Assembly (NCBI RefSeq): GCF_000023945.1
Contig: NC_013158.1
Coordinates: 2,232,001-2,296,000 of the forward strand
DNA: 64,000 nucleotides
Direction of reading: 5' to 3'
Source of the DNA: Halorhabdus utahensis DSM 12940
GTDB taxonomy: Archaea; Halobacteriota; Halobacteria; Halobacteriales; Haloarculaceae
Part shown: one piece after another, positions 1,472-24,115 of the stretch
How positions within the stretch are numbered: the first letter of the stretch is position 1
How the letters are laid out: each line of letters opens with the position of its first letter
Notes under the pieces: model-generated
What the model was told of the DNA's origin: nothing
Database searches by the model: none
Seen by the model: the letters and a program-made list of their open reading frames with translations, nothing else
Program-made: the position numbers and the translations under genes

Positions 1472-1996
1472 TCAGTGGAGTGTGCCTTCCCGGACGTGCT
1501 CGTCGTAGGCGAACAGCGCGTAGCCGACGTCTGCCGGTGAATGCCCTGTCTCGTCGGCGATTTCGCGGATCGGTTCGATCATCGCCACGTAGTCGGCGGC
1601 GTCGAAGTTCTCCTTGCGGCCCTCGAGGTAGTCCAGCCGTTCCAGGGCGGCCCAGACGCGCGTGTCCACTACGGCGTGGCGGTCGGGATCCAGCGCCGTC
1701 AGGGCGGCCGAGGCGACGGGGGCCTTGAACCCCGAGAGGCCGGAGAGCAGCTGCACCTGCGAGAAATCGCCCTCGACTGTTCGGACGTTACGGGTCACCT
1801 CGATGCACCGGTCCTCTGGATTGGACTCGACGTGATACGCACTCCGTGTTGCGGTCTCGTAGGCCAGTTCGTACAACTGATCGCGGGTCAGGTGGCCCTG
1901 CTGGCGGTACTGCTCGCCGAACTCGCTCAGCCGCTCGGGCAGGACACCCTGGGTGTCTCCGTACCGATCAAGGTTCTCGGCGACGAATTGTTCCAT
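1472..1996 (-). CDS. Conserved hypothetical protein, 174 aa
   Basis: I do not recognise a family with confidence. The product is soluble, acidic and mostly helical, with no signal peptide or membrane span. It begins MEQFVAENLDRYGDTQG. The block DRHAVVDTRVWAAL (around residues 104-117), followed by a Tyr/Asp-rich helical C-terminus, loosely resembles the helical DNA glycosylase fold, but the diagnostic helix-hairpin-helix and catalytic Asp are not clearly seen, so that is only a hint. It lies 79 nt upstream of nothing obvious and is followed by the DUF460 gene on the same strand to its right. Codon use and composition match the neighbours, so it is probably a normal resident gene. Confidence 0.7.
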   Translation of the reverse strand: MEQFVAENLDRYGDTQGVLPERLSEFGEQYRQQGHLTRDQLYELAYETATRSAYHVESNPEDRCIEVTRNVRTVEGDFSQVQLLSGLSGFKAPVASAALTALDPDRHAVVDTRVWAALERLDYLEGRKENFDAADYVAMIEPIREIADETGHSPADVGYALFAYDEHVREGTLH

Positions 1997-7825: not shown

Positions 7826-8875
7826 CTAGAAGTGGATCAGCGGCTTGATCATCCCGTCTTCCTTCGTTTCCATCATCTCGAAGGCCTCCTGAATCTCGTC
7901 GAACTCGAACTCGTGGGTGGTCATCTTCGTCGGGTCGACCTTGCCCTGATCGAGCAACCGGAGCAGGCGCTGAATGCGCAGGCGGCCGCCGGGACAGAGG
8001 TCGTTGACGATGTCGATCTCGCTCATGCCGACGCCCCACTCGGCGCGCGGGATGTGCCGGAACTCGCCGTCGCCGTGGTAGCCGACGTTCGAGACCGTGC
8101 CGCCGGGCTTGGTGACTTTGATGCAGTCCTGGAAGGTCTCGTCAGCCCCCAGTGCCTCGATGGCGACGTCGACGCCCTCGCCGTCGGTCAGCTCCATGAT
8201 CTCCTCGGCGGGATCGACCTCGCCGAAGTCGACAACGTCGGTCGCGCCGTACTCGCGGGCGAGTTCCTTGCGTTCGGGGACGGTCTCGACGGCGATGATC
8301 CGGCCGGCTCCTTGTAGCTCGGCCCCTTTCGTCGCCATCAGGCCGACGGGACCCTGCGCGAAGACGGCGACGGTCCCGCCCATCGGGATGTCGCCGCGCT
8401 CGGCACCGGCGAAGCCGGTCGAAAGCATGTCCGCGACGTAGGCGGCCTCGTGATCGCTGACGCCCTCGGGGATCTTCGCGAGGTTGCCGTCGGCGTCGTT
8501 GATGTGGACATACTCGGCGAAGGTGCCGTCCTTGACGTTGGCGAACTTCCACCCGCCGAGGGCTTGATTCGACTGGGAGGGGTGGCCGTCCTGGGCCGCC
8601 AGGGAGTTCCAGTCGGGCGTGATCGCGCCGACGGCGACACGGTCGCCCGCCTCGAAGTGCTCGACTGCGCTGCCGACCTCGTCGACGACGCCGACGACTT
8701 CGTGACCGAGTGTGAGGTCCTCACGCTCGCCGATCGCGCCGTGGACGGTGTGACAGTCGGAGGTGCAGATCAGCCCCTCCGTGGGCTTCAAGATCGCGTC
8801 CTGGGGACCGGGTTCGGGGCGCTCTTTTTCGATGATGGCCGTCTCGCCGATGTCGCGCATGACAAATGCTTTCAT
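7826..8875 (-). CDS. Zinc-dependent secondary alcohol dehydrogenase, 349 aa
   Basis: Medium-chain dehydrogenase closely resembling the Thermoanaerobacter/Clostridium secondary (isopropanol) alcohol dehydrogenases. Matching stretches include ICTSDCHTVHGAIGERE with the catalytic zinc Cys, LGHEVVG with the zinc His/Glu, and AITPDWNSL with the third zinc ligand. The Rossmann segment is QGPVGLMATKGAELQGAGR. After beta-2 the residues AVETVPER carry a Glu where NADP-dependent relatives have a Gly-Ser-Arg, so I infer NAD(H) preference. The start is ATG 8875, not the longer frame, because TTTATA (8909-8914) lies 34-39 nt upstream. It could provide fermentative reoxidation of NADH or use alcohols. Confidence 0.9.
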   Translation of the reverse strand: MKAFVMRDIGETAIIEKERPEPGPQDAILKPTEGLICTSDCHTVHGAIGEREDLTLGHEVVGVVDEVGSAVEHFEAGDRVAVGAITPDWNSLAAQDGHPSQSNQALGGWKFANVKDGTFAEYVHINDADGNLAKIPEGVSDHEAAYVADMLSTGFAGAERGDIPMGGTVAVFAQGPVGLMATKGAELQGAGRIIAVETVPERKELAREYGATDVVDFGEVDPAEEIMELTDGEGVDVAIEALGADETFQDCIKVTKPGGTVSNVGYHGDGEFRHIPRAEWGVGMSEIDIVNDLCPGGRLRIQRLLRLLDQGKVDPTKMTTHEFEFDEIQEAFEMMETKEDGMIKPLIHF

Positions 8876-8953
8876 TGTACGAACAGTCAGACAAACGGCC
8901 GCATTCGTTATAAAGGTGAGTTCCAGTCCAGCGATTTGGGAATCCAACAACCG

Positions 8954-9100
8954 GTCCGTCGCAGTCGAGGTGGGCGTCGTGGTGCCGTTCGTTTCGGTCG
9001 TCGGTTGCGTGGTGTCGGCGTCGCCGGCCCCGTCAGTCGTCGTGCTATCACCGCTCCTGCTGGCACGTAGCCTGCCGGTTCCGGCCGCCAGACTGTATTC
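8954..9100 (-). pseudogene. Decayed N-terminal fragment of an iron-type substrate-binding lipoprotein
   Basis: Directly after the stop of the 418-aa binding-protein gene, the minus strand in the +1 frame reads EYSLAAGTGRLRASRSGD followed by a Thr-rich linker (TTETNGTTTPTSTATD). This aligns with KYGLAVGTGGLLAGCSGG plus Thr/Glu linker at the N-terminus of the intact neighbour (about 10 of 17 positions identical). The lipobox LAGC has become RASR, the Arg-Arg start is missing, and nothing of the mature domain follows before the alcohol dehydrogenase. I read it as the remains of a third tandem copy. Confidence 0.5.
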
Positions 9101-10355
9101 AAATCTCTCCGTTGACGATGTCCGCGACCCGCTGGCGGTCGAACAACTCGTCGTCCCCGGTTACGTCGCCGAACGTCTCGGGATAGAGCTGTTTGGCGGC
9201 ACGCTCCGTCAGGAAGAGGTTCTGGATCGGGCCCTGATAGAGGAAGCCGCCGCGGTAGACCTGCCCGTTCTGGACGGCCGTCAGTTCGCTCCCGACGGGG
9301 TGGTCTTCCATGTACGCGAGCACCGTGTCGCGGAACTCCTGGGCCGATTTGCGCTCGTGGCCCCGGACCAAGAGTACGTCCGGGTCGACCGTGAGCAGGT
9401 TCTCGTAGTCGAGTTCGCCCCGATCGGTCGTGCTGAGCCCCTCGATACCGGTGCCGGAGAGGGCGTCGGCGACTCCCAGGTCCCGCCACTGCTTTTTGCT
9501 CGTCCCACGGTCGTTGAGCCGGTACGGCGAGAACGTCTCGGGCTCGTCCGTCCCCTCGAAGGTGAGCATGACGTTCGGCCGCTCGCTCGCGGGCGGCATC
9601 CTCGCCTGGACGTCCGCGAGGAACTCCTCGTGGAGTGTCTCGAACGCCTGGAAGCGCTCCTCCCGCTGGAAGAGCTCCGCCAGCTTCTCGAAGGCCTGGT
9701 ACAGCGTGTAGTAGCGGTAGTCGTGCCAGGCGTCCTCGCGCCGGAAGATCAGGTTCGCGAACAAGGGCGCGACGTTCTCGCGGATCTCACTGACGTCTGC
9801 CGGCCCCCAGTCGAACCAGTTGATCAGCATCTGAGGGTCGTACAGGAAGACGTCGCTGTCCAGCGCGTAGAACTGTTCTTTGGTCCGCACCTCGGGGTCT
9901 TCCTCGATCTGCTCACGATCGACGCTGACACCGGGTAGTTCGTCGTAGACGTACGAGTAATACCGGTCGGCGAACCCGATTCCCTGGATGCCGTCGCCCT
10001 TGCCCAGCGCGACCGCCATGTCGGCGTAGTCGCCGCTGTACGGCGTAAACGTCTCGGGTACCTCTTCGAAGCTGACCTCCCCGACAGGTGCCATCTCGAC
10101 GGTGTAGGGGGTGTCGGCTGTCGTTTCCGTCGCCGTTTCGGTGGTCGTCTCCGCCTCCGTTTCGGTGGTCGTCTCCGTCTCCGTCGCCGTCTCGGTGGGT
10201 GTTGCGGTCGCCGTTTCCTGGTCGGCCGGTTGGGCCGTCTCGGTACGTTCCCCACCGCTACAGCCCGCGAGCAGGCCGCCGGTCCCGACCGCCAGGCCGT
10301 ACTTCAGGTACTCACGTCGTGTCGGTGTCGTCCTCGAACCCGCGTCGTCACTCAT
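9099..10355 (-). CDS. ABC substrate-binding lipoprotein, iron/siderophore type (copy 1), 418 aa
   Basis: Periplasm-facing binding lipoprotein of the FepB/FhuD-like class (clan of helical-backbone binding proteins). It has a Tat signal (TRREYLKYG, residues 12-20) and the lipobox LLAGC, then a Thr/Glu-rich tether (about residues 38-85). The mature domain begins TVEMAPVGEVSFEEVP. The C-terminus LFDRQRVADIVNGEI is shared with copy 2. It starts 1 nt after the stop of copy 2, so both lie on one transcript controlled by the operators at 11659-11710. The cognate ATPase and permease are in the next operon. The exact ligand (ferric siderophore, haem or free iron) is not known. Confidence 0.88.
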   Translation of the reverse strand: MSDDAGSRTTPTRREYLKYGLAVGTGGLLAGCSGGERTETAQPADQETATATPTETATETETTTETEAETTTETATETTADTPYTVEMAPVGEVSFEEVPETFTPYSGDYADMAVALGKGDGIQGIGFADRYYSYVYDELPGVSVDREQIEEDPEVRTKEQFYALDSDVFLYDPQMLINWFDWGPADVSEIRENVAPLFANLIFRREDAWHDYRYYTLYQAFEKLAELFQREERFQAFETLHEEFLADVQARMPPASERPNVMLTFEGTDEPETFSPYRLNDRGTSKKQWRDLGVADALSGTGIEGLSTTDRGELDYENLLTVDPDVLLVRGHERKSAQEFRDTVLAYMEDHPVGSELTAVQNGQVYRGGFLYQGPIQNLFLTERAAKQLYPETFGDVTGDDELFDRQRVADIVNGEI

Positions 10356-10356
10356 C

Positions 10357-11655
10357 TCAGATGTCTCCGTTGATGACGGCCGCGACGCGCTCGCGGTCGA
10401 ACAGCTGTTCCCCGGCCGGAATCTCGGGATAGGGGCCCTCGGTGTAGCGTGGCCACTCGCCGAACTGGTCGGGGTAGAGCTGCTTGGCCGTCATCTCCAG
10501 CTGGAAGAGGTTGAGAATGGGACCCTGATACCGGGCGCCCTGCGGGTAGACCCGCTCGCTCTGGACAGCGGTGATCTCACTCGCGACCGGATCGGACTGG
10601 AACTCCTCGCGACGCGCGGCCAGATCGGTGTTCGGTTCGAACCCACCCAGATGCAGGATCACGTCCGGGTCGGCCTCCAGCAACGCCTCGTAATCGATGA
10701 CTGAGGCAGACTCGACCTCGCCGTCGAAGGCGTCTCTGGCACCGAACGGGCGGGTGTGTGCGGTCAGGAATCCGGGTTCGTCGAGCGTGTAGGCGTAGAT
10801 CTCGTCGAGGTCCTGGGCGGCGATCATCACGACAGAGGGCCGCTCGGATTCGTCGGGGAGGCGCTCTTCGATAGTTCCCAGTAGGTCCGCGTGGATCGCC
10901 GCGAGTTCCTCATACCGCGCCTGTTCGCCGAACAGTTGCGCGACGCGTTCGAACTGCTCCCACAGCGTGTAGTACTCGTAGCCGTCCGCATAGGCGTCCG
11001 GCGGCTCCTGGTGGGTGTCACTCAGCGAGTTGCCGAACCAGGGCGAGACACCGCTTTCGATCTCCTCGATGTCGGCAGGGTCCCAGTTGTCCTGTACCGT
11101 GATCCAGGCCGGGTCAGCGAGGTGGATGTCGCTGTCGAGTTCGTAGAGTTTCTCCTTGGTGGGTTGCCACGAGGAGTACAGCCCCTCCCAGTCCAGCGTG
11201 ACGCCAGGTAGTCGTTCGATGAACTGGTTCCACAGCCGGTCGTAGTACGCCGGCGCGTGCATCGCGGTGATGGTGTCACCGCGACCCAGAGCGAACGCCA
11301 TGTCGGCATGATGCGTGAGCCGGGTGAAGACGGTCTCAGGCGGTTCTTCCAGGCTGACCCGCCCCATCGGGGCGATCGATGCGCTGTACGTGTCGGACTC
11401 GGTTTCCGTCGTCGTCTCCGTATCCTCCGAGGTGGTAGCTGTCTCAGTCGGATCCGACGGCGTCGCCGTTTCAGTCCGTACCGACGTGGTCGCCGTCTCA
11501 CTGTCGGGGTCGCCCTCGTCGTCCGTGGCACTACTCGAACAGCCGGCCAACAGGCCGCCCACGAGCGCCGCGCCGCCGTACTTGATCGCCTCTCGGCGGG
11601 TCGGTGTTTCGGGTGCTACTGACTCCCCGCTCGTCGAACTCGAATCGTCTCCCAT
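10357..11655 (-). CDS. ABC substrate-binding lipoprotein, iron/siderophore type (copy 2), 432 aa
   Basis: Paralogue of the downstream gene, first in the two-gene transcript. Signal: TRREAIKYGG then LLAGC lipobox, then a Thr-rich tether, then SIAPMGRVSLEEPPETVFT. The C-terminus reads LFDRERVAAVINGDI. The start ATG 11655 has the TATA-like CTTTTATTGG (about 11680-11688) 26-30 nt upstream, flanked by two DtxR-type palindromes, so the message is probably leaderless and iron-repressed. The two copies have diverged through the mature domain, which suggests different ligands served by one transporter. Confidence 0.88.
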   Translation of the reverse strand: MGDDSSSTSGESVAPETPTRREAIKYGGAALVGGLLAGCSSSATDDEGDPDSETATTSVRTETATPSDPTETATTSEDTETTTETESDTYSASIAPMGRVSLEEPPETVFTRLTHHADMAFALGRGDTITAMHAPAYYDRLWNQFIERLPGVTLDWEGLYSSWQPTKEKLYELDSDIHLADPAWITVQDNWDPADIEEIESGVSPWFGNSLSDTHQEPPDAYADGYEYYTLWEQFERVAQLFGEQARYEELAAIHADLLGTIEERLPDESERPSVVMIAAQDLDEIYAYTLDEPGFLTAHTRPFGARDAFDGEVESASVIDYEALLEADPDVILHLGGFEPNTDLAARREEFQSDPVASEITAVQSERVYPQGARYQGPILNLFQLEMTAKQLYPDQFGEWPRYTEGPYPEIPAGEQLFDRERVAAVINGDI

Positions 11656-11658
11656 AGA

Positions 11659-11710
11659 TTTTAGGCAAGCCTAAACCAATAAAAGGCCACCGATTTTAGG
11701 CGAGCCAAAA
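11659..11710. promoter_or_regulatory. Two DtxR/SirR-type iron operators flanking a TATA box
   Basis: TTTTAGGCAAGCCTAAA (11659-11675) and TTTTAGGCGAGCCAAAA (11694-11710) are near-palindromes of the DtxR-family type (consensus core TTAGGCTAGCCTAA). The first covers the expected transcription start and the second lies upstream of the TATA box (about 11680-11688) of the 432-aa binding-protein gene. Binding at either site would block initiation. Regulation by a haloarchaeal DtxR-type Fe repressor is inferred from the site and the genes. Confidence 0.75.
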
Positions 11711-11847
11711 ATAGGGGTGCTGACAGACAACCCGTCGTATCCGTGCCTGCCAGCGGTCGGAGTGCTTGCCCACCATCCCGGTCGGGCACGTCGTTGCGAT
11801 GCGAGAGCGGGAGTCGGCCGAGCCGTGGGGGCAGTCGTCCCCGGCGC

Positions 11848-12789
11848 TCACGACTGCTTGTCCGGGTCGCCCTCGTGGCGGGGGTGGAGCGGTTCGATCC
11901 GTGGCCCGCGGGGCGTCCGCTCGACCGCGGCGTCGATCTCGAAGACGTCCGCCAGGAGCCTTTCGGTGATGACCGCCTCGGGCGGCCCTCGCGCCCGGAT
12001 CTCGCCGTCCTTCAGTGCGATCATCCGATCGGCGTGCCGAGCGGCTTGCTGGATGTCGTGCAGGACGACGACGACCGTCATGTCGCTGTCGTCCCGGAGC
12101 GTCCGGACGATCTCCATCACTTCGAGCTGGTGGTGGAGATCCAGGAACGTCGTCGGCTCGTCGAGCAACAGGACGTCGGTGTCCTGGGCGAGCACCATCG
12201 CGATCCAGACCAGTTGCTTCTGGCCGCCGCTCAACTGGCCGACCTCGCGCTCGCGCAGGTGCTCAACGCCCGCCAGTTCGATCGATCGGTCGATTTCCCC
12301 GCGGTCGGCGTCGGTGAGGCCGTCGAAAAAGCCCCGGTGGGGGTAGCGGCCGTGTTCGACCAGCTGTTCGACCGTGATGCTATCGGGGGCGACGTTCTCC
12401 TGGGAGAGCAGGCCGAGCTTTCGCGCGAGTTCTTTGGTCTCCATGTCGTGAATATCGGTGCCGTCCAGCCGGACGACGCCGGAGTCGAGTGCCAGCTGGT
12501 CGGCCACCCCTTTCAGGAGTGTGCTCTTGCCGCTGCCGTTCGGTCCGACCAGAGCGGTCACTTCGCCGGGCGCGACCTCGATCGACGCGCCGTCGATGAC
12601 CGGCTGGTCGCTCGACGGGTAGCTGATGACGAGGTCGTCGCCGCGGAACTCGCTCGCTGCCGTCTCGCCGTCGGCGCGTCCGTCCTCGGGCTGCTCGCCG
12701 TCGGCCGGCGTCTCGCCGTTCTCCCGTGATACGGGCTCCTCGATCACTTGGCTGACACCGCCGTCCGGTTCGGGCGTTTTCCCGGGCAT
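11848..12789 (-). CDS. ABC transporter ATPase, iron/siderophore (FecE/FhuC-like), 313 aa
   Basis: Energises iron-complex import. Walker A is GPNGSGKST (about residues 86-94), the Q-loop region is LGLLSQENV, the signature is LSGGQKQLV, Walker B is VLLLDEPT, and the switch His is in VVLHDIQQAA. GRYPHRGFFDG is typical of the FecE/FhuC/BtuD subfamily. The first 50 residues are an unusual acidic extension rich in Glu/Asp/Gly. It overlaps the permease stop by 1 nt and is the last gene of the operon starting near 15014. Confidence 0.93.
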   Translation of the reverse strand: MPGKTPEPDGGVSQVIEEPVSRENGETPADGEQPEDGRADGETAASEFRGDDLVISYPSSDQPVIDGASIEVAPGEVTALVGPNGSGKSTLLKGVADQLALDSGVVRLDGTDIHDMETKELARKLGLLSQENVAPDSITVEQLVEHGRYPHRGFFDGLTDADRGEIDRSIELAGVEHLREREVGQLSGGQKQLVWIAMVLAQDTDVLLLDEPTTFLDLHHQLEVMEIVRTLRDDSDMTVVVVLHDIQQAARHADRMIALKDGEIRARGPPEAVITERLLADVFEIDAAVERTPRGPRIEPLHPRHEGDPDKQS

Positions 12790-13985
12790 CAGATCTCACC
12801 CATCGTGTCCTGTTTGCGCATCAGGTAGAGGAAGTATGGGCCGCCGAGCAGCCCGGTGACGATGCCGACGGGCATCTGCTGGCTGCTGCCCGCAAGCACC
12901 ATGAGGCCCAGCCTGGCGCCGACGTCGGCGGCGACCATCAGCGCCGGGCCGGCGAACAGACAGCCGACGACCAGATGCTTGTAGTCGCTCCCGACGATGT
13001 TGCGGACCATGTGCGGGACGATCAGGCCGACGAAGCCGACGATGCCCGCGACGGCGATGGCTGCCGCGGCGGCCACCACCGCGACGGTCGAGAGGGCAAA
13101 GCGCATTCGCTCGACGTTCATGCCGAGCGAGGAGGCCGTCCGCTCGCCCAACAACAGCACGTTCAGCTGTCTCGCACTGATGACCGAGAGCGCGACGACG
13201 GGGATCGTCCAGGGGAGTGCCATCCGGACCTGCTCCCAGTCGACCCCAGTGAGCGACCCCGTCGTCCAGGCGATGGCCGACTGGACGACGCCGATGTCGC
13301 TCGCGAAGAAGAACAGCCCCGTTTGGAGACTCTGGAAGACGGTGCCGACGATGACGCCCGCCAGAACGAGGCGAACCGGCGACGTCCCGTTCTTCCAGGC
13401 GATCGCGTAGACGAGCAGGAACGCGCCGATCCCGCCAAGCGCGGCGATGATCGGGAGCAACGAGGAGATGTCAAGCGCCACCGAGCCGACGACGTAGGGT
13501 ATCACGAGCGTCGCGCCCGAGAGGGCCACGAGGACGAGGAGGATCATCAGCCCCGCCCCCGAGGAGACGCCCAGGATGAACGGACTCGCGAGTTCGTTGC
13601 GGGTCACCGCCTGGAAGATCGCCCCGGAGACCGCCAGGTTCATGCCCACCAGGATCGCGACGAGGACTCTGGGAAACCGGATGTTCCAGACGATGAGGCT
13701 CCGTCGGTTCATCTCGGGCAGTTCGGCACCGAGCACCGGAAACTCGGCCCCGAAGACGAAGTATCGCCAGGCCTGTAGGTTGAAGATGACGTCCGGATTG
13801 AACAGGGCCTGCCAGGCTTCGATCGGCGTCGTCGAGAACGAGCCGAAGCTCACCTGTATCAGGGTGCCACCCACGATGACGAGGAGACTGCCGAGGACGA
13901 CCGTCCACAACGAGCCTGACAGCCAGTCGAACGCGCGACGATGCCGGGAGACCGAGTCCGTGGCGGTGGCTGATTCGCCCGCCAT
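12789..13985 (-). CDS. ABC transporter permease, FecCD/BtuC family, 398 aa
   Basis: Membrane component of iron-complex importers with about ten hydrophobic spans. Family segments are visible: NIRFPRVLVAILVGMNLAVSG (N-terminal core), LASPFILGVSSGAGL, and the C-terminal GFVGLIVPHMVRNIVGSDYK, whose cytoplasmic loop contacts the ATPase. An extra hydrophilic N-terminus of about 25 residues precedes the first span. It lies between the oxidoreductase (2-nt gap) and the ATPase (1-nt overlap), so all three are cotranscribed. It would serve the two binding lipoproteins encoded downstream. Confidence 0.93.
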   Translation of the reverse strand: MAGESATATDSVSRHRRAFDWLSGSLWTVVLGSLLVIVGGTLIQVSFGSFSTTPIEAWQALFNPDVIFNLQAWRYFVFGAEFPVLGAELPEMNRRSLIVWNIRFPRVLVAILVGMNLAVSGAIFQAVTRNELASPFILGVSSGAGLMILLVLVALSGATLVIPYVVGSVALDISSLLPIIAALGGIGAFLLVYAIAWKNGTSPVRLVLAGVIVGTVFQSLQTGLFFFASDIGVVQSAIAWTTGSLTGVDWEQVRMALPWTIPVVALSVISARQLNVLLLGERTASSLGMNVERMRFALSTVAVVAAAAAIAVAGIVGFVGLIVPHMVRNIVGSDYKHLVVGCLFAGPALMVAADVGARLGLMVLAGSSQQMPVGIVTGLLGGPYFLYLMRKQDTMGEI

Positions 13986-13987
13986 GC

Positions 13988-14923
13988 TCAGTCACTCGCC
14001 TCCGTTACCTCACGCTCGGTGTCGGCGTCACGGGCGGCCTCGATCTCCCTGGCGCGGGCGAGGACCCGCTCGTCGTCGAGCTGTTCGAGCAGGCGGTCCT
14101 GGCCCCGCTCGCGGCGGCTCGCGATCGCATCCTCGTCGATGTAGCTAGCGAGGATGCGGTCGATCTCGCGCTCCCTGGTCGCTTCGGTCAACTCTTCGCC
14201 CGCCACGCGATCGTCCAGATACTCGCGCCACCGCTCCCGGTCGTGCCACTCCGCGTCCAGCTCCGCCCACCGACGGACCCAGTCGTAGTGGTCGGCCACT
14301 TCTTCGGGGAGTCCCGACGCGCGGCGGTGGTCCCGGAGGAGCGTGCGAGCCGTCGCCGCCCCGCGGCCGGCGGCGATGATCGCCTGCTCGTCAGCGGGAG
14401 AGGGCGTGGCGACGTAGAGACCCTCGATCGGTGTCGAGCCGTCGGCGTCGGGATAGTCACGGTCGAAGTGGTCGGTTTCCTCGCTATCGCCTGCACTGGT
14501 GGTGACCATCTCATCGTCGGCGTCGAGGGGCCAGAGGTATGCCCCGTCGTAGCGCGTCGCCGCGATCACCCGACGGGCCGTGACCGCCCCTCCCTCCTGT
14601 GGGGTGACGACGAAGCCTCCCGCCACGGGGGTCTCGAGGGCCTCGACGGATTCGACGAGGTCCTCCCTTAGGGCACAGCCGGCCGCACGGACGTGGTCGT
14701 GGAGTAACTCGCAGTAGGTCTCGATGTCGATGCCAGCCGGGAAGCCGGGATAGTTTTCGAGATGTGCACACCGCCGGATCGAGGACCGACCGCGGTCGAA
14801 CACCAGCGTGTCGAGGCCGTACCGGGCGGTGAAAATCCCCGCCGAGCAACCGGCCGGGCCGCCGCCGATGACGACCACGTCGTGGTCGTATGCACTCGTC
14901 GCTTCGCCGTCAGGATCAGTCAT
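13988..14923 (-). CDS. Minimal thioredoxin-reductase-like FAD oxidoreductase, 311 aa
   Basis: The N-terminal FAD Rossmann motif is VVVIGGGPAGCSAGI (residues 16-30), followed by the TrxR-type HLENYPGF and a second FAD-contact segment EQAIIAAGRGAATA (about residue 187 on). The usual middle NADPH-binding domain and the redox CxxC of thioredoxin reductase are both missing. Instead there is a charged helical tail of about 110 residues. Its place as first intact gene of the iron operon suggests a role in ferric-siderophore reduction or release, but that is inference. ATG 14923 overlaps the stop of a binding-protein remnant (ATGA); GGTGA about 10 nt upstream is a plausible ribosome site. Confidence 0.75.
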   Translation of the reverse strand: MTDPDGEATSAYDHDVVVIGGGPAGCSAGIFTARYGLDTLVFDRGRSSIRRCAHLENYPGFPAGIDIETYCELLHDHVRAAGCALREDLVESVEALETPVAGGFVVTPQEGGAVTARRVIAATRYDGAYLWPLDADDEMVTTSAGDSEETDHFDRDYPDADGSTPIEGLYVATPSPADEQAIIAAGRGAATARTLLRDHRRASGLPEEVADHYDWVRRWAELDAEWHDRERWREYLDDRVAGEELTEATREREIDRILASYIDEDAIASRRERGQDRLLEQLDDERVLARAREIEAARDADTEREVTEASD

Positions 14924-14997
14924 GCGTCGAACTCACCAGTGACGATGGCAGCGCTACGCTGCCGGTCGACCAACCCTTCCTCGTCGTGATCCTCCGG
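14920..14997 (-). pseudogene. C-terminal remnant of a deleted siderophore-binding protein gene
   Basis: Minus-strand codons from 14997 to the TGA at 14920-14922 read EEGLVDRQRSAAIVTGEFDA at the end, matching the C-termini of the two intact binding proteins (LFDRQRVADIVNGEI and LFDRERVAAVINGDI). Upstream there remains only an intact iron-regulated promoter and an ATG at 15014 in another frame (32-codon MDEERDRRITTRKG... frame ending at 14916). I infer an internal deletion that removed almost the whole gene but kept promoter, first codons and last 25 codons. Confidence 0.65.
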
Positions 14998-15016
14998 TCA
15001 CGTTCCTCGTCCATGG

Positions 15017-15069
15017 TTTTAGGCTAGCCTAAAGAATATAAATGCGTTCCGGATTTCAGGCTAGCCAAA
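15017..15069. promoter_or_regulatory. Two DtxR-type iron operators with TATA box, between oxidoreductase operon and ZIP gene
   Basis: TTTTAGGCTAGCCTAAA (15017-15033) contains a perfect 14-bp palindrome (15019-15032). A second site, TTTCAGGCTAGCCAAA, lies at about 15054-15069. The minus-strand TATA (ATTTATA, 15037-15043) lies between them and 26 nt from the ATG at 15014. The pair mirrors the layout at 11659-11710. The second site also lies about 40 nt upstream of the TATA-like sequence (about 15110) of the plus-strand ZIP gene and could control both directions. Confidence 0.8.
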
Positions 15070-15170
15070 TCCACTCGGCACCGGGACTGACGTTCGTTCC
15101 GGGCCGGGCAATATACATATGATCGCCCCGCGTGTGTCCGGACGATGGTGGCGCATGGACGTGATCGACA

Positions 15171-16028
15171 GTGGTGACCGACGCCTTCGTCGACCTCGTC
15201 GGGACCAACCGTCTCATCCAGGCACTGGTCGGCGGGATCGTCATTGCCACGCTCAACCTGCTCGGGGCGTCGCTCGTACTCGTCTGGCGCGACCCGAGTG
15301 AGCGTGCTTTGGACGGGGCGCTGGGCTTTGCGGCCGGCGTGATGATGGCCGCGGCCTTTACCAGTCTGATCGTGCCAGGGATCGAGGCCACCGAGATCAT
15401 CGTTCCGGGGCTGGCAGCCGACGGACTCCTCAGGCCCCTGCCCGTCTTGATCGGGATCGCACTGGGGGTTCTCGTGCTCGATCGCGGTGACGCACTCGTT
15501 CCCCACGCCCACATTCTGCTCACGGGTCGGAAACGCGCCGACGCCGCCGGCCAGTCCGAACAGCTCCCGATCGACGACCCGCGGATCGCCTCCGTGGTGT
15601 TGTTCATCCTGGCGATCACGCTGCACAACGTCCCCGAGGGGCTCGCGGTGGGCGTCGGCTTCGGCTCCGGTGACGTCGGCGGGGCGCTGGCACTGATGCT
15701 CGCGATCGGTATCCAGAACATCCCGGAGGGGCTGGCGGTTTCGATCGCGGCGATCAACGCCGGCCTCGATCGCCGACTCTACGCCGCGGTCGCCGGGATC
15801 CGGGCTGGCGTCGTCGAGATTCCCCTGGCCGTGATCGGCGCGCTGGCCGTGACGGTCGCCACCCCACTGCTGCCCTACGCGATGGGGTTCGCCGCGGGCG
15901 CGATGCTGTTCGTCATCAGTGACGAGATCGTCCCCGAGACCCACACCCGCGGCCACGAACGCATTGCCACGCTGGGCACGATGGCCGGCGTGCTCGTCAT
16001 GCTGTACCTTGACGTCGCACTCGCGTGA
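15171..16028 (+). CDS. ZIP-family divalent metal transporter, 285 aa
   Basis: Zinc/iron permease family with eight predicted spans. The signature metal-site helices are HNVPEGLAVG (about residue 151) and QNIPEGLAVS (about residue 182), containing the HNxPEG and QNxPEG motifs of ZupT-like members. The start is GTG 15171 (or GTG 15174); the first nearby ATGs (15145, 15154) are out of frame. Its promoter region shares the iron operators at 15017-15069, so an iron-responsive role in Fe(II)/Mn/Zn uptake is plausible but not proven. It converges on the GAF/PAS kinase gene with 25 nt between stops. Confidence 0.88.
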   Translation: MVTDAFVDLVGTNRLIQALVGGIVIATLNLLGASLVLVWRDPSERALDGALGFAAGVMMAAAFTSLIVPGIEATEIIVPGLAADGLLRPLPVLIGIALGVLVLDRGDALVPHAHILLTGRKRADAAGQSEQLPIDDPRIASVVLFILAITLHNVPEGLAVGVGFGSGDVGGALALMLAIGIQNIPEGLAVSIAAINAGLDRRLYAAVAGIRAGVVEIPLAVIGALAVTVATPLLPYAMGFAAGAMLFVISDEIVPETHTRGHERIATLGTMAGVLVMLYLDVALA

Positions 16029-22935: not shown

Positions 22936-24115
22936 TTGCAGATACCACACGGGTATCCGTAGCGGTCGCAGTCTCCAGGGGCGCGGATTCGGCCTGTCCC
23001 ATGCCTAATTCAGAAAAAGCACGCTGAAGGATGTTCTTCGCGGCGTTGGCGTCCCTATCGTCTTCGTATCCGCACGACGGACATGAGTGCTCGCGCACCC
23101 ACAGGGGTTTCTCGGTTTCAACGCCACAGTTGCTACACTCCTTGGTAGTTCCACGTGGGTTGACTTCAACGAGGTGCGTACCGGCGCTCTCAGCCTTGTA
23201 TCGCAGTATCTCGATGAAGGTTCGCCACGCGGAATGTGCTGTGTTTCGACTGTTTCGGTCTTGCTCCATCATGCCGCGAACGTTCAGGTCCTCGACGGCC
23301 ACCACGTCGTAGGTCTCGACGTAGTAGTGGGCGAGCTTGTGCAGGAAGTCGCGGCGTTTGTTCGCAATCTGGTCGTGCCAGCGGGCGACGACCATCCGTT
23401 GTTTTTCGTAGTTGTTCGACCTCTTCTCTTTTCGCGAGAGCTTCCGCTGTTCTCGTCGTAGGCGCTCACGTTCGTCCGAGAGGTCCAACGATTCCACGGC
23501 GGTCCCGTCGGTGTCGTGAGCGTACTTCAGGATACCCACGTCGATACCGACAGCATCTTCGGGGTCGATGGTTTCGGGGGCGGGTTTTTCGGGTTGTTCG
23601 TCGATCTCAATGCCGAACGTCGCGTACCATTTCCCCGAAGCGTTCCGTTTGATGCAGACCTGCTTGATGGTCGCGTTCTCGGGAATCTCGCGGTGGTACG
23701 CGATTGGTATCTCACCGATCTTGCTCAGTCGAAGCCGATCCCGTCGGGTGTCGGTTCCAATGAGCTTGAACCCGCTTTGGCTGTAGGTGAACGACTTGTA
23801 CCACCCCGCGCCCTTCCAACGAAGCGCACCGACGTTGTACCCGTTCTCCTTTTGCCCTGAGAGTGTACGAAGGTTGTTGTAGAGCCGTTCTACGACGACC
23901 TGAAGCACCTTCGAATGGATCTGCTTCAGGTCGGACCATTCGCGTTTCAGGTCAGGGAGTGTGTTCTTTTGGGCGTATTCCGAAGGCACGTCGTCGGCTT
24001 CGTTGAGCCGGTTCAGGAAGTGGTTGTAGACCTGTCTACAGGTATCGAGCGTCCACGCTAACGCCTCCCGTTGGTCGTCCGTCGGATAGAGCCGATACCT
24101 GTAGTTGTAGTTCAT
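22862..24115 (-). CDS. tnpB: TnpB RNA-guided nuclease / OrfB of IS605 type, 417 aa
   Basis: Full-length TnpB. The RuvC-like acidic triad is intact: Asp192 (AVGIDVGILKYA), Glu275 (VVAVEDLNVRGM) and Asp355 (DRDANAAKNIL). The zinc ribbon CSNCG (327/330) and CPSCG (345/348) lies between the second and third. The N-terminus MNYNYRYRLYPTDDQ is the usual wedge/recognition start. It overlaps tnpA by 4 nt. About 40 residues follow the last catalytic helix; the tail is also the template of the probable guide RNA scaffold. No frameshift or stop is present, so it should be active if expressed. Confidence 0.95.
   Translation of the reverse strand: MNYNYRYRLYPTDDQREALAWTLDTCRQVYNHFLNRLNEADDVPSEYAQKNTLPDLKREWSDLKQIHSKVLQVVVERLYNNLRTLSGQKENGYNVGALRWKGAGWYKSFTYSQSGFKLIGTDTRRDRLRLSKIGEIPIAYHREIPENATIKQVCIKRNASGKWYATFGIEIDEQPEKPAPETIDPEDAVGIDVGILKYAHDTDGTAVESLDLSDERERLRREQRKLSRKEKRSNNYEKQRMVVARWHDQIANKRRDFLHKLAHYYVETYDVVAVEDLNVRGMMEQDRNSRNTAHSAWRTFIEILRYKAESAGTHLVEVNPRGTTKECSNCGVETEKPLWVREHSCPSCGYEDDRDANAAKNILQRAFSELGMGQAESAPLETATATDTRVVSASRVIERGSPALNERGRQTERSRTG

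Follow-up and report, generated by a model that had tools for sequence, protein, structure and literature searches.

The closest described counterparts of the sequence analyzed here are the siderophore-binding Tat lipoproteins of haloarchaea (PF01497, Peripla_BP_2; FhuD-type). Haloferax volcanii has been reported to have 11 FhuD paralogues and a pair of paralogous permeases, with a ferR signal preceding fhu genes (PMC11349517); this siderophore-binding family is likewise large, and the passages of that paper on the paralogues describe them as proteins and mention no relics. In the paper on Halorhabdus utahensis (PMC3102087), the main text never uses the term ‘binding protein’, and among the papers listed by one open library on Halorhabdus and siderophores, or on haloarchaea, siderophores and pseudogenes, no such relics were described in titles or abstract openings. 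The short fragment studied here, termed the N-terminal scar, shares with these Tat lipoproteins a B-like signal-peptide core, a putative Thr-rich tether, the strand and the position in an array of binding-protein genes, whereas it is without a start codon, RR motif, lipobox Cys and binding domain, and is thus a relic rather than a gene.

The genome of H. utahensis consists of a single contig of 3,116,795 bases, and the window is the stretch of 64,000 nt of it that was analyzed. The window genome is referred to as G000, and the other Halorhabdus genomes named below as G001, G003, G004 and G005. Read on the minus strand, the iron cluster runs from a thioredoxin-reductase-like gene (TRXR) through a FecCD permease, an ABC ATPase and the binding-protein genes A and B to a gap and an alcohol dehydrogenase gene (ADH). 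One base separates the stop of A from the start of B, and the gap between the end of B (9099) and the start of ADH (8875) measures 223 nt. The two palindromes of the cluster, TTAGGCTAGCCTAA and TTAGGCAAGCCTAA, are taken by us to be putative DtxR/FerR-like operators, and CCTTTATAAC was assigned as TATA-like by the usual promoter rule.

Table 1. Coordinates of the cluster and of its two scars (positions in the window; basis of each assignment in the last column).
Feature	Position	Strand	Basis
ADH, zinc alcohol dehydrogenase (ADH_N, ADH_zinc_N)	7826..8875	-	domain matches
ADH upstream flank	8876..8942	-	alike in G001 from about TTCCCA onward, judged by eye
TATA-like CCTTTATAAC, putative ADH promoter element	8916-8907	-	sequence, outside the scar
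N-terminal scar, probable decayed remnant of the 5' part of a B-like binding-protein gene	8951..9100	-	sequence comparison
N-terminal scar, signal-peptide core	9100-9050	-	sequence comparison
N-terminal scar, putative Thr-rich tether	9049-8951	-	sequence comparison
Gene B, Tat lipoprotein, Peripla_BP_2 (PF01497)	9099..10355	-	domain match
Gene A, second Peripla_BP_2 lipoprotein	10357..11655	-	domain match
Palindrome TTAGGCAAGCCTAA upstream of gene A	11661..11674	.	sequence
ABC ATPase, iron-siderophore type	11848..12789	-	domain match
FecCD-type permease	12789..13985	-	domain match
TRXR, thioredoxin-reductase-like FAD oxidoreductase	13988..14923	-	domain match
C-terminal scar, PEDHDEEGLVDRQRSAAIVTGEFDA and stop, putative tail of a lost first binding-protein gene	14920..14997	-	sequence comparison
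Palindrome TTAGGCTAGCCTAA just upstream of the leader ATG	15019..15032	.	sequence

A Tat-type hydrophobic core, a mutated lipobox and a Thr-rich tether had been proposed by the sequence-only reading to lie in one frame of the gap; the core and the altered lipobox were recovered there, with a Thr-rich stretch in the place of the tether. Frame 1 of 8876-9100 (minus strand) opens with EYSLAAGTGRLRASRSGDSTTTDGAGDADTTQPTTETNGTTTPTSTATDR, and the minus strand from 9100 to 8951 translates to EYSLAAGTGRLRASRSG followed by a Thr-rich tail. When the core was aligned with the signal peptide of B (KYGLAVGTGGLLAGCSG), 36 of 51 bases and 10 of 17 residues were identical, and the core matched gene A at 24 of 51 bases. 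The scar starts within the stop codon of B, the TGA of which (9101-9099) overlaps its left edge; the sequence at this point is ATTTGAATAC, and the corresponding signal-peptide DNA of B is CTGAAGTAC. The likeness to B begins at the codon preceding Tyr, and the Tat RR part is absent from the scar. At the place of the lipobox LAGC of B the scar reads RASR, without the lipobox Cys. Thr makes up 14 of the 33 residues after RASRSG, and this putative tether, which is of low complexity and contributes little to the case, aligns with that of B. No start codon was found within the scar, the first in-frame ATG, GTG or TTG after the last stop being the TTG at 8950, and no profile match to a substrate-binding domain was found in the gap between B and ADH. 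An N-terminally extended ADH was considered and rejected: the frame is open into ADH, yet its first start is that same TTG, outside the scar. ADH would have its own TATA-like element outside the scar, and no present function is apparent for the scar from its sequence.

In the codon-level comparison with intact B that the sequence-only reading had called for, the differences fell at codon positions 1, 2 and 3 in 5, 2 and 8 of 17 cases each; although these numbers are small, this is the pattern expected of a copy that once coded. For comparison, B of G000 and B of G001 are identical at 66.7% of third positions. Set against this value, the identity of the core (36/51, 71%) would place the origin of the scar, by a rough estimate, near the divergence of the two species, if it drifted freely.

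The likeness was compared with dinucleotide shuffles, each read in three frames, with 20,000 shuffles per test. The core peptide scored 44 against the signal peptide of B, as against a shuffle mean of 18.3 and a maximum of 39, so that 0/20,000 shuffles reached it. The peptide of the whole 150 nt scored 87 against the N-terminus of B (shuffle maximum, 65; 0/20,000) and 47 against the signal peptide alone (3/20,000). Of the DNA scores, that of the core was 32 (reached by 1/20,000 shuffles), and that of the whole fragment was 38, which stemmed from the tether and was reached by 125/20,000. The composition-matched randomization named beforehand as a possible refutation thus did not refute the likeness of the peptides, and the DNA scores gave a weaker result.

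Real DNA of the window served as a second control, with 20,316 stretches per length taken from both strands in steps of 6 and with B, A and the gap excluded. The peptide scores of the whole fragment were reached by 44 stretches (against the N-terminus of B) and 43 stretches (against the signal peptide), and those of the core by 35 and 7 stretches, respectively. The 7 stretches were confined to two real signal peptides, and every stretch that reached a peptide score lay in a Thr-rich region at 47.7-48.1 kb, a Tat signal peptide at 49.6-49.9 kb or a Tat lipoprotein at 62.5-62.8 kb. The DNA scores were reached by 36 stretches (whole fragment) and 24 stretches (core), and 11 of these 24 lay outside those three regions, at 1.6 kb and at 23.4 kb. 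At these places, about 1640-1720 (plus strand) and 23395-23470 (minus strand), the core DNA score against B was reached and the peptide score was not; their likeness is probably due to chance. If the scar itself were a chance likeness of GC-rich intergenic DNA, the tether score reached by 125 shuffles, the core DNA score reached at two unrelated places and the failure of genome-wide searches to find the scar would fit, but the peptide scores of both core and whole fragment exceeded all shuffles, real stretches matched the core against the signal peptide only at genuine signal peptides, and position and strand agree with the array; this explanation is regarded as extremely improbable. By sequence comparison, homology beyond chance together with disabling losses appears clear on peptides and weaker on DNA scores alone.

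The closest relatives of the core were sought by an ungapped scan of the 51 nt over 2,193,072 positions of haloarchaeal DNA, in which some loci overlap and most loci had been chosen by their match to B, which favors binding proteins and leaves other lipoproteins under-sampled. B was the best non-self match over these 2.19 million positions, and the scar thus holds the hydrophobic core of a signal peptide of the family type. Ten non-self rows reached at least 31/51; they represented four distinct genes, namely the B genes of G000 and G001 (36 each), that of G004 (34) and one for a binding protein of Natrialba aegyptia (32), and all were in-frame signal peptides of the siderophore-binding family. 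In a comparison of 134 distinct N-termini, peptide scores of 44, 41 and 38 were obtained for the B genes of the three Halorhabdus genomes, the next score being 29, and these genes also came first in the DNA ranking over 137 N-termini (G001 counted twice). Among these 137 binding-protein N-termini, LAxGTGxL occurred only in the Halorhabdus B genes, where it is the sequence nearest to SLAAGTGRL of the scar. The core of X, a further binding protein of G001, was less alike than B (28/51).

Such cores are common to haloarchaeal Tat lipoproteins, and that at 62.5 kb aligns well with B, as would be expected if the scar were the front of a Tat lipoprotein other than a binding protein. Nevertheless, LAxGTGxL is restricted to the Halorhabdus B genes among the N-termini compared, and no other lipoprotein reached 31/51 in the scan, in which they are under-sampled; an origin of this kind is held to be very unlikely.

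Broader searches did not recover the scar. With its 50-aa peptide, a search of 146 family genomes at an E-value of 0.001 returned the self match only and did not retrieve B. A DNA search across the genus, with at most 40 candidates scored per genome, gave only scattered matches elsewhere, none longer than 71 bases and none with an E-value below 0.0016, and B was absent from them. The family profile HMM did not report the N-terminal scar, and it gave the C-terminal scar 4.3 bits. The case for the N-terminal scar is to be read as a local test at a place with a prior reason to look.

The same site was then compared among Halorhabdus genomes. A full third copy in close relatives had been named as a check, and no intact third binding protein was found behind B in any of 7 Halorhabdus genomes. 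In G004, a complete second FAD oxidoreductase (TR2) lies behind B, and in G001 a shortened TR2, its start joined to about the last 102 residues; since the full gene and the shortened gene stand there, this place has probably lost DNA in the lineage of the window. In the window genome, the best relative of TR2 (72%) is located at position 1,546,516, apart from the iron cluster, and is followed by a DUF7551/DUF7552 gene (both within L104:6514-8249, at about 1,546,500). G001, which has the same array as the window, carries X as a third binding protein, with A on one side and B on the other; after its shortened TR2 comes an antisense piece of a binding-protein C-terminus beside ADH.

In the Halorhabdus genomes compared other than G000, G001 and G004, the cluster of the window (type II) is absent at the site. 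Between ADH and the ZIP transporter gene, G003 and G005 carry a type I cluster (L086 and L087, compared with 7826-16028 of the window) in the opposite orientation, the proteins of which are 44-67% identical to those of the window. For the antisense piece of G001, the highest score, 70, was obtained with type I C-termini, and 0/1000 shuffles reached it (maximum, 46). From the type I clusters at the same site and the antisense type I fragment, we infer that the type II cluster of the window replaced type I between ADH and ZIP. The N-terminal scar itself was rejected as a type I relic: it reads toward ADH and type I genes read away, and its core matched these at only 28/51 (G005) and 26/51 (G003). 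In the stretch of G004 compared, the ZIP transporter gene is present only as a 54-residue piece beside the cluster (L083:5318-5479), apparently another relic.

At the other end of the cluster, the minus strand from 14997 to 14920 reads PEDHDEEGLVDRQRSAAIVTGEFDA, and its TGA overlaps the ATG of TRXR (ATGA); such overlapping pairs and their coupling are the topic of PMC6728339. This C-terminal scar, which the sequence-only reading had also noted, scored 67 against the C-termini of the family, as against a peptide-shuffle maximum of 46 (0/1000), and is a family C-terminus directly before TRXR, where relatives have an intact gene. In Halorubrum salsamenti and Halorubrum halophilum (L007, L009), an intact binding-protein gene precedes TRXR with the same ATGA overlap and TRXR frame; the C-termini of these genes scored 46 and 53 against the scar (ranks 86 and 36 of 140), and B scored 45 (rank 88 of 140). 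The start of a first-gene leader beside the scar aligns with the leaders of G001 and G004. Because the C-terminal scar is not B-like and the leader start is still alongside, the two scars appear to be the remains of two genes. On the same grounds a circular permutation was rejected, in which both scars would be one gene cut at the cluster ends. An N-terminal scar was also looked for in the G001 and G004 leaders before TRXR, where the scores were reached by 21/1000 and 808/1000 peptide shuffles and were not significant. A conserved leader peptide was likewise not retained: the two leaders differ at 10, 10 and 9 bases by codon position, which does not indicate peptide constraint.

Before TRXR, Halorubrum aquaticum and Halorubrum cibi have a short open frame in which the C-terminal tail follows directly on the signal peptide and lipobox. 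These frames of 52 or 59 aa (L053:1217-1375, L055:4046-4225) have RH for RR, a lipobox and the last binding-protein residues; they lie behind an operator-like sequence and overlap the TRXR start. Over 159 aligned bases they differ at 10, 6 and 7 bases by codon position. In Halovivax asiaticus, the binding-protein gene before TRXR has its middle deleted and is out of frame. The Halorubrum fusions and this deletion indicate that the gene before TRXR was worn down repeatedly.

The survey was extended to 49 named loci found with B (L007-L055, L006 being excluded as identical to G001), in which genes were counted on either strand and at any place within the locus. At least two full binding-protein genes were present in 27 of the 49 loci, and the number ranged from 1 to 11; the locus of Natrialba aegyptia (L041) holds 11 full genes in 14 kb. 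With a threshold of at least 12 bits, partial copies were found in 6/49 loci (L015, L017, L021, L049, L053, L055) and in 0/8 Halorhabdus stretches, the known scars of which score lower. N-terminal relics of the family were thus found in Halosimplex and Halorubrum as well. In Halosimplex carlsbadense, the partial copy lies directly behind X and ends in or soon after the tether, much like the N-terminal scar; in Halosimplex aquaticum it ends just after the lipobox (both by eye). In the latter species, an operator-like palindrome is followed by the shortened signal peptide and lipobox (L017:4266-4403), and the stop of this frame overlaps (ATGA) the start of the next gene, for which the identity with the DUF7551/DUF7552 gene L104:7275-8249 is 49% across 324 residues. 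The truncated copies of Halosimplex carlsbadense (L015), Halosimplex aquaticum (L017), Halorubrum aquaticum and cibi (L053, L055), Halovivax asiaticus (L049) and Ca. Halobonum tyrrellensis (L021) retain the N-terminal signal and lipobox, with the body wholly or partly gone. Unlike the scar, they keep the lipobox Cys, and those of Halorubrum are fused to a C-terminal tail; by sequence they look younger than the scar or still open. Recurrent gain and loss of binding-protein genes in haloarchaea is supported by these comparisons. The proposal that the two scars of the window together record repeated gain and loss stood in part: the B-related relic and the recurrence across haloarchaea agree with it, but the scars would come from different genes, and the change in siderophore use that was proposed along with it is conjectural.

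The tethers themselves may also point to exchange. The tether of X (G001, L082:6030-7247) and that of B (G000, 10355-9102) agree at 48/51 bases on otherwise unlike proteins, whereas B of G000 and its orthologue in G001 have 39 of these 51 in common. In the other 20-column windows, the last short window apart, X and B agree at 37-79%. This suggests that tether DNA moves between paralogues via recombination or gene conversion.

The N-terminal scar is related to the Halorhabdus B signal peptide, has the same strand and lies directly behind B, and it has lost the start codon, the Tat RR motif, the lipobox Cys and the binding domain. It is probably a dead remnant of one more gene of this binding-protein array, a paralogue that is nearest to B. 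On this explanation, B would have been duplicated in tandem, and one deletion would have brought the stop codon of B up against the copied signal peptide, a shared TGAA perhaps being the joint. A second deletion, reaching from the tether almost to the ADH promoter, would have taken the body of the copy, together with the second oxidoreductase present there in G004, and the remainder would then have drifted. Alternatively, the copied DNA could have been limited to the 5' end of B, with its signal peptide and a part of its tether, and a full further gene would never have existed. Only the first part of B is represented, with nothing of the binding domain, the closest relation is B itself and the tether seems mobile between paralogues, all of which agree with a partial copy; the differences from B, however, are fewest at codon position 2, which points to some time of coding in spite of the small numbers, and multi-gene loci are common (27/49). 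A partial duplication is therefore considered rather unlikely, and the lost full gene is favored, though not proved, over a copied 5' fragment.

A wider reading is offered tentatively, as a doubtful one: the tether may be a preferred place of recombination and deletion, and relics of first genes may be kept open by ribosome hand-over through the overlapping stop and start. Domains would be exchanged behind the tether, and genes cut at the tether or just after the lipobox would leave N-terminal scars, while the relics of first genes would have an iron-regulated leaderless start on one side and the next gene on the other.

A single scar is a small matter and ordinary in kind, and tethers as exchange points are a modest lead. 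The locus nevertheless offers a base-level view of how iron-carrier receptors are gained and lost in an archaeon. Its site, flanked by ADH and a ZIP transporter gene, holds one or the other of two different clusters in different Halorhabdus species, and these two versions face opposite ways. If tethers are exchange points, recombination there could reshuffle receptor specificity.
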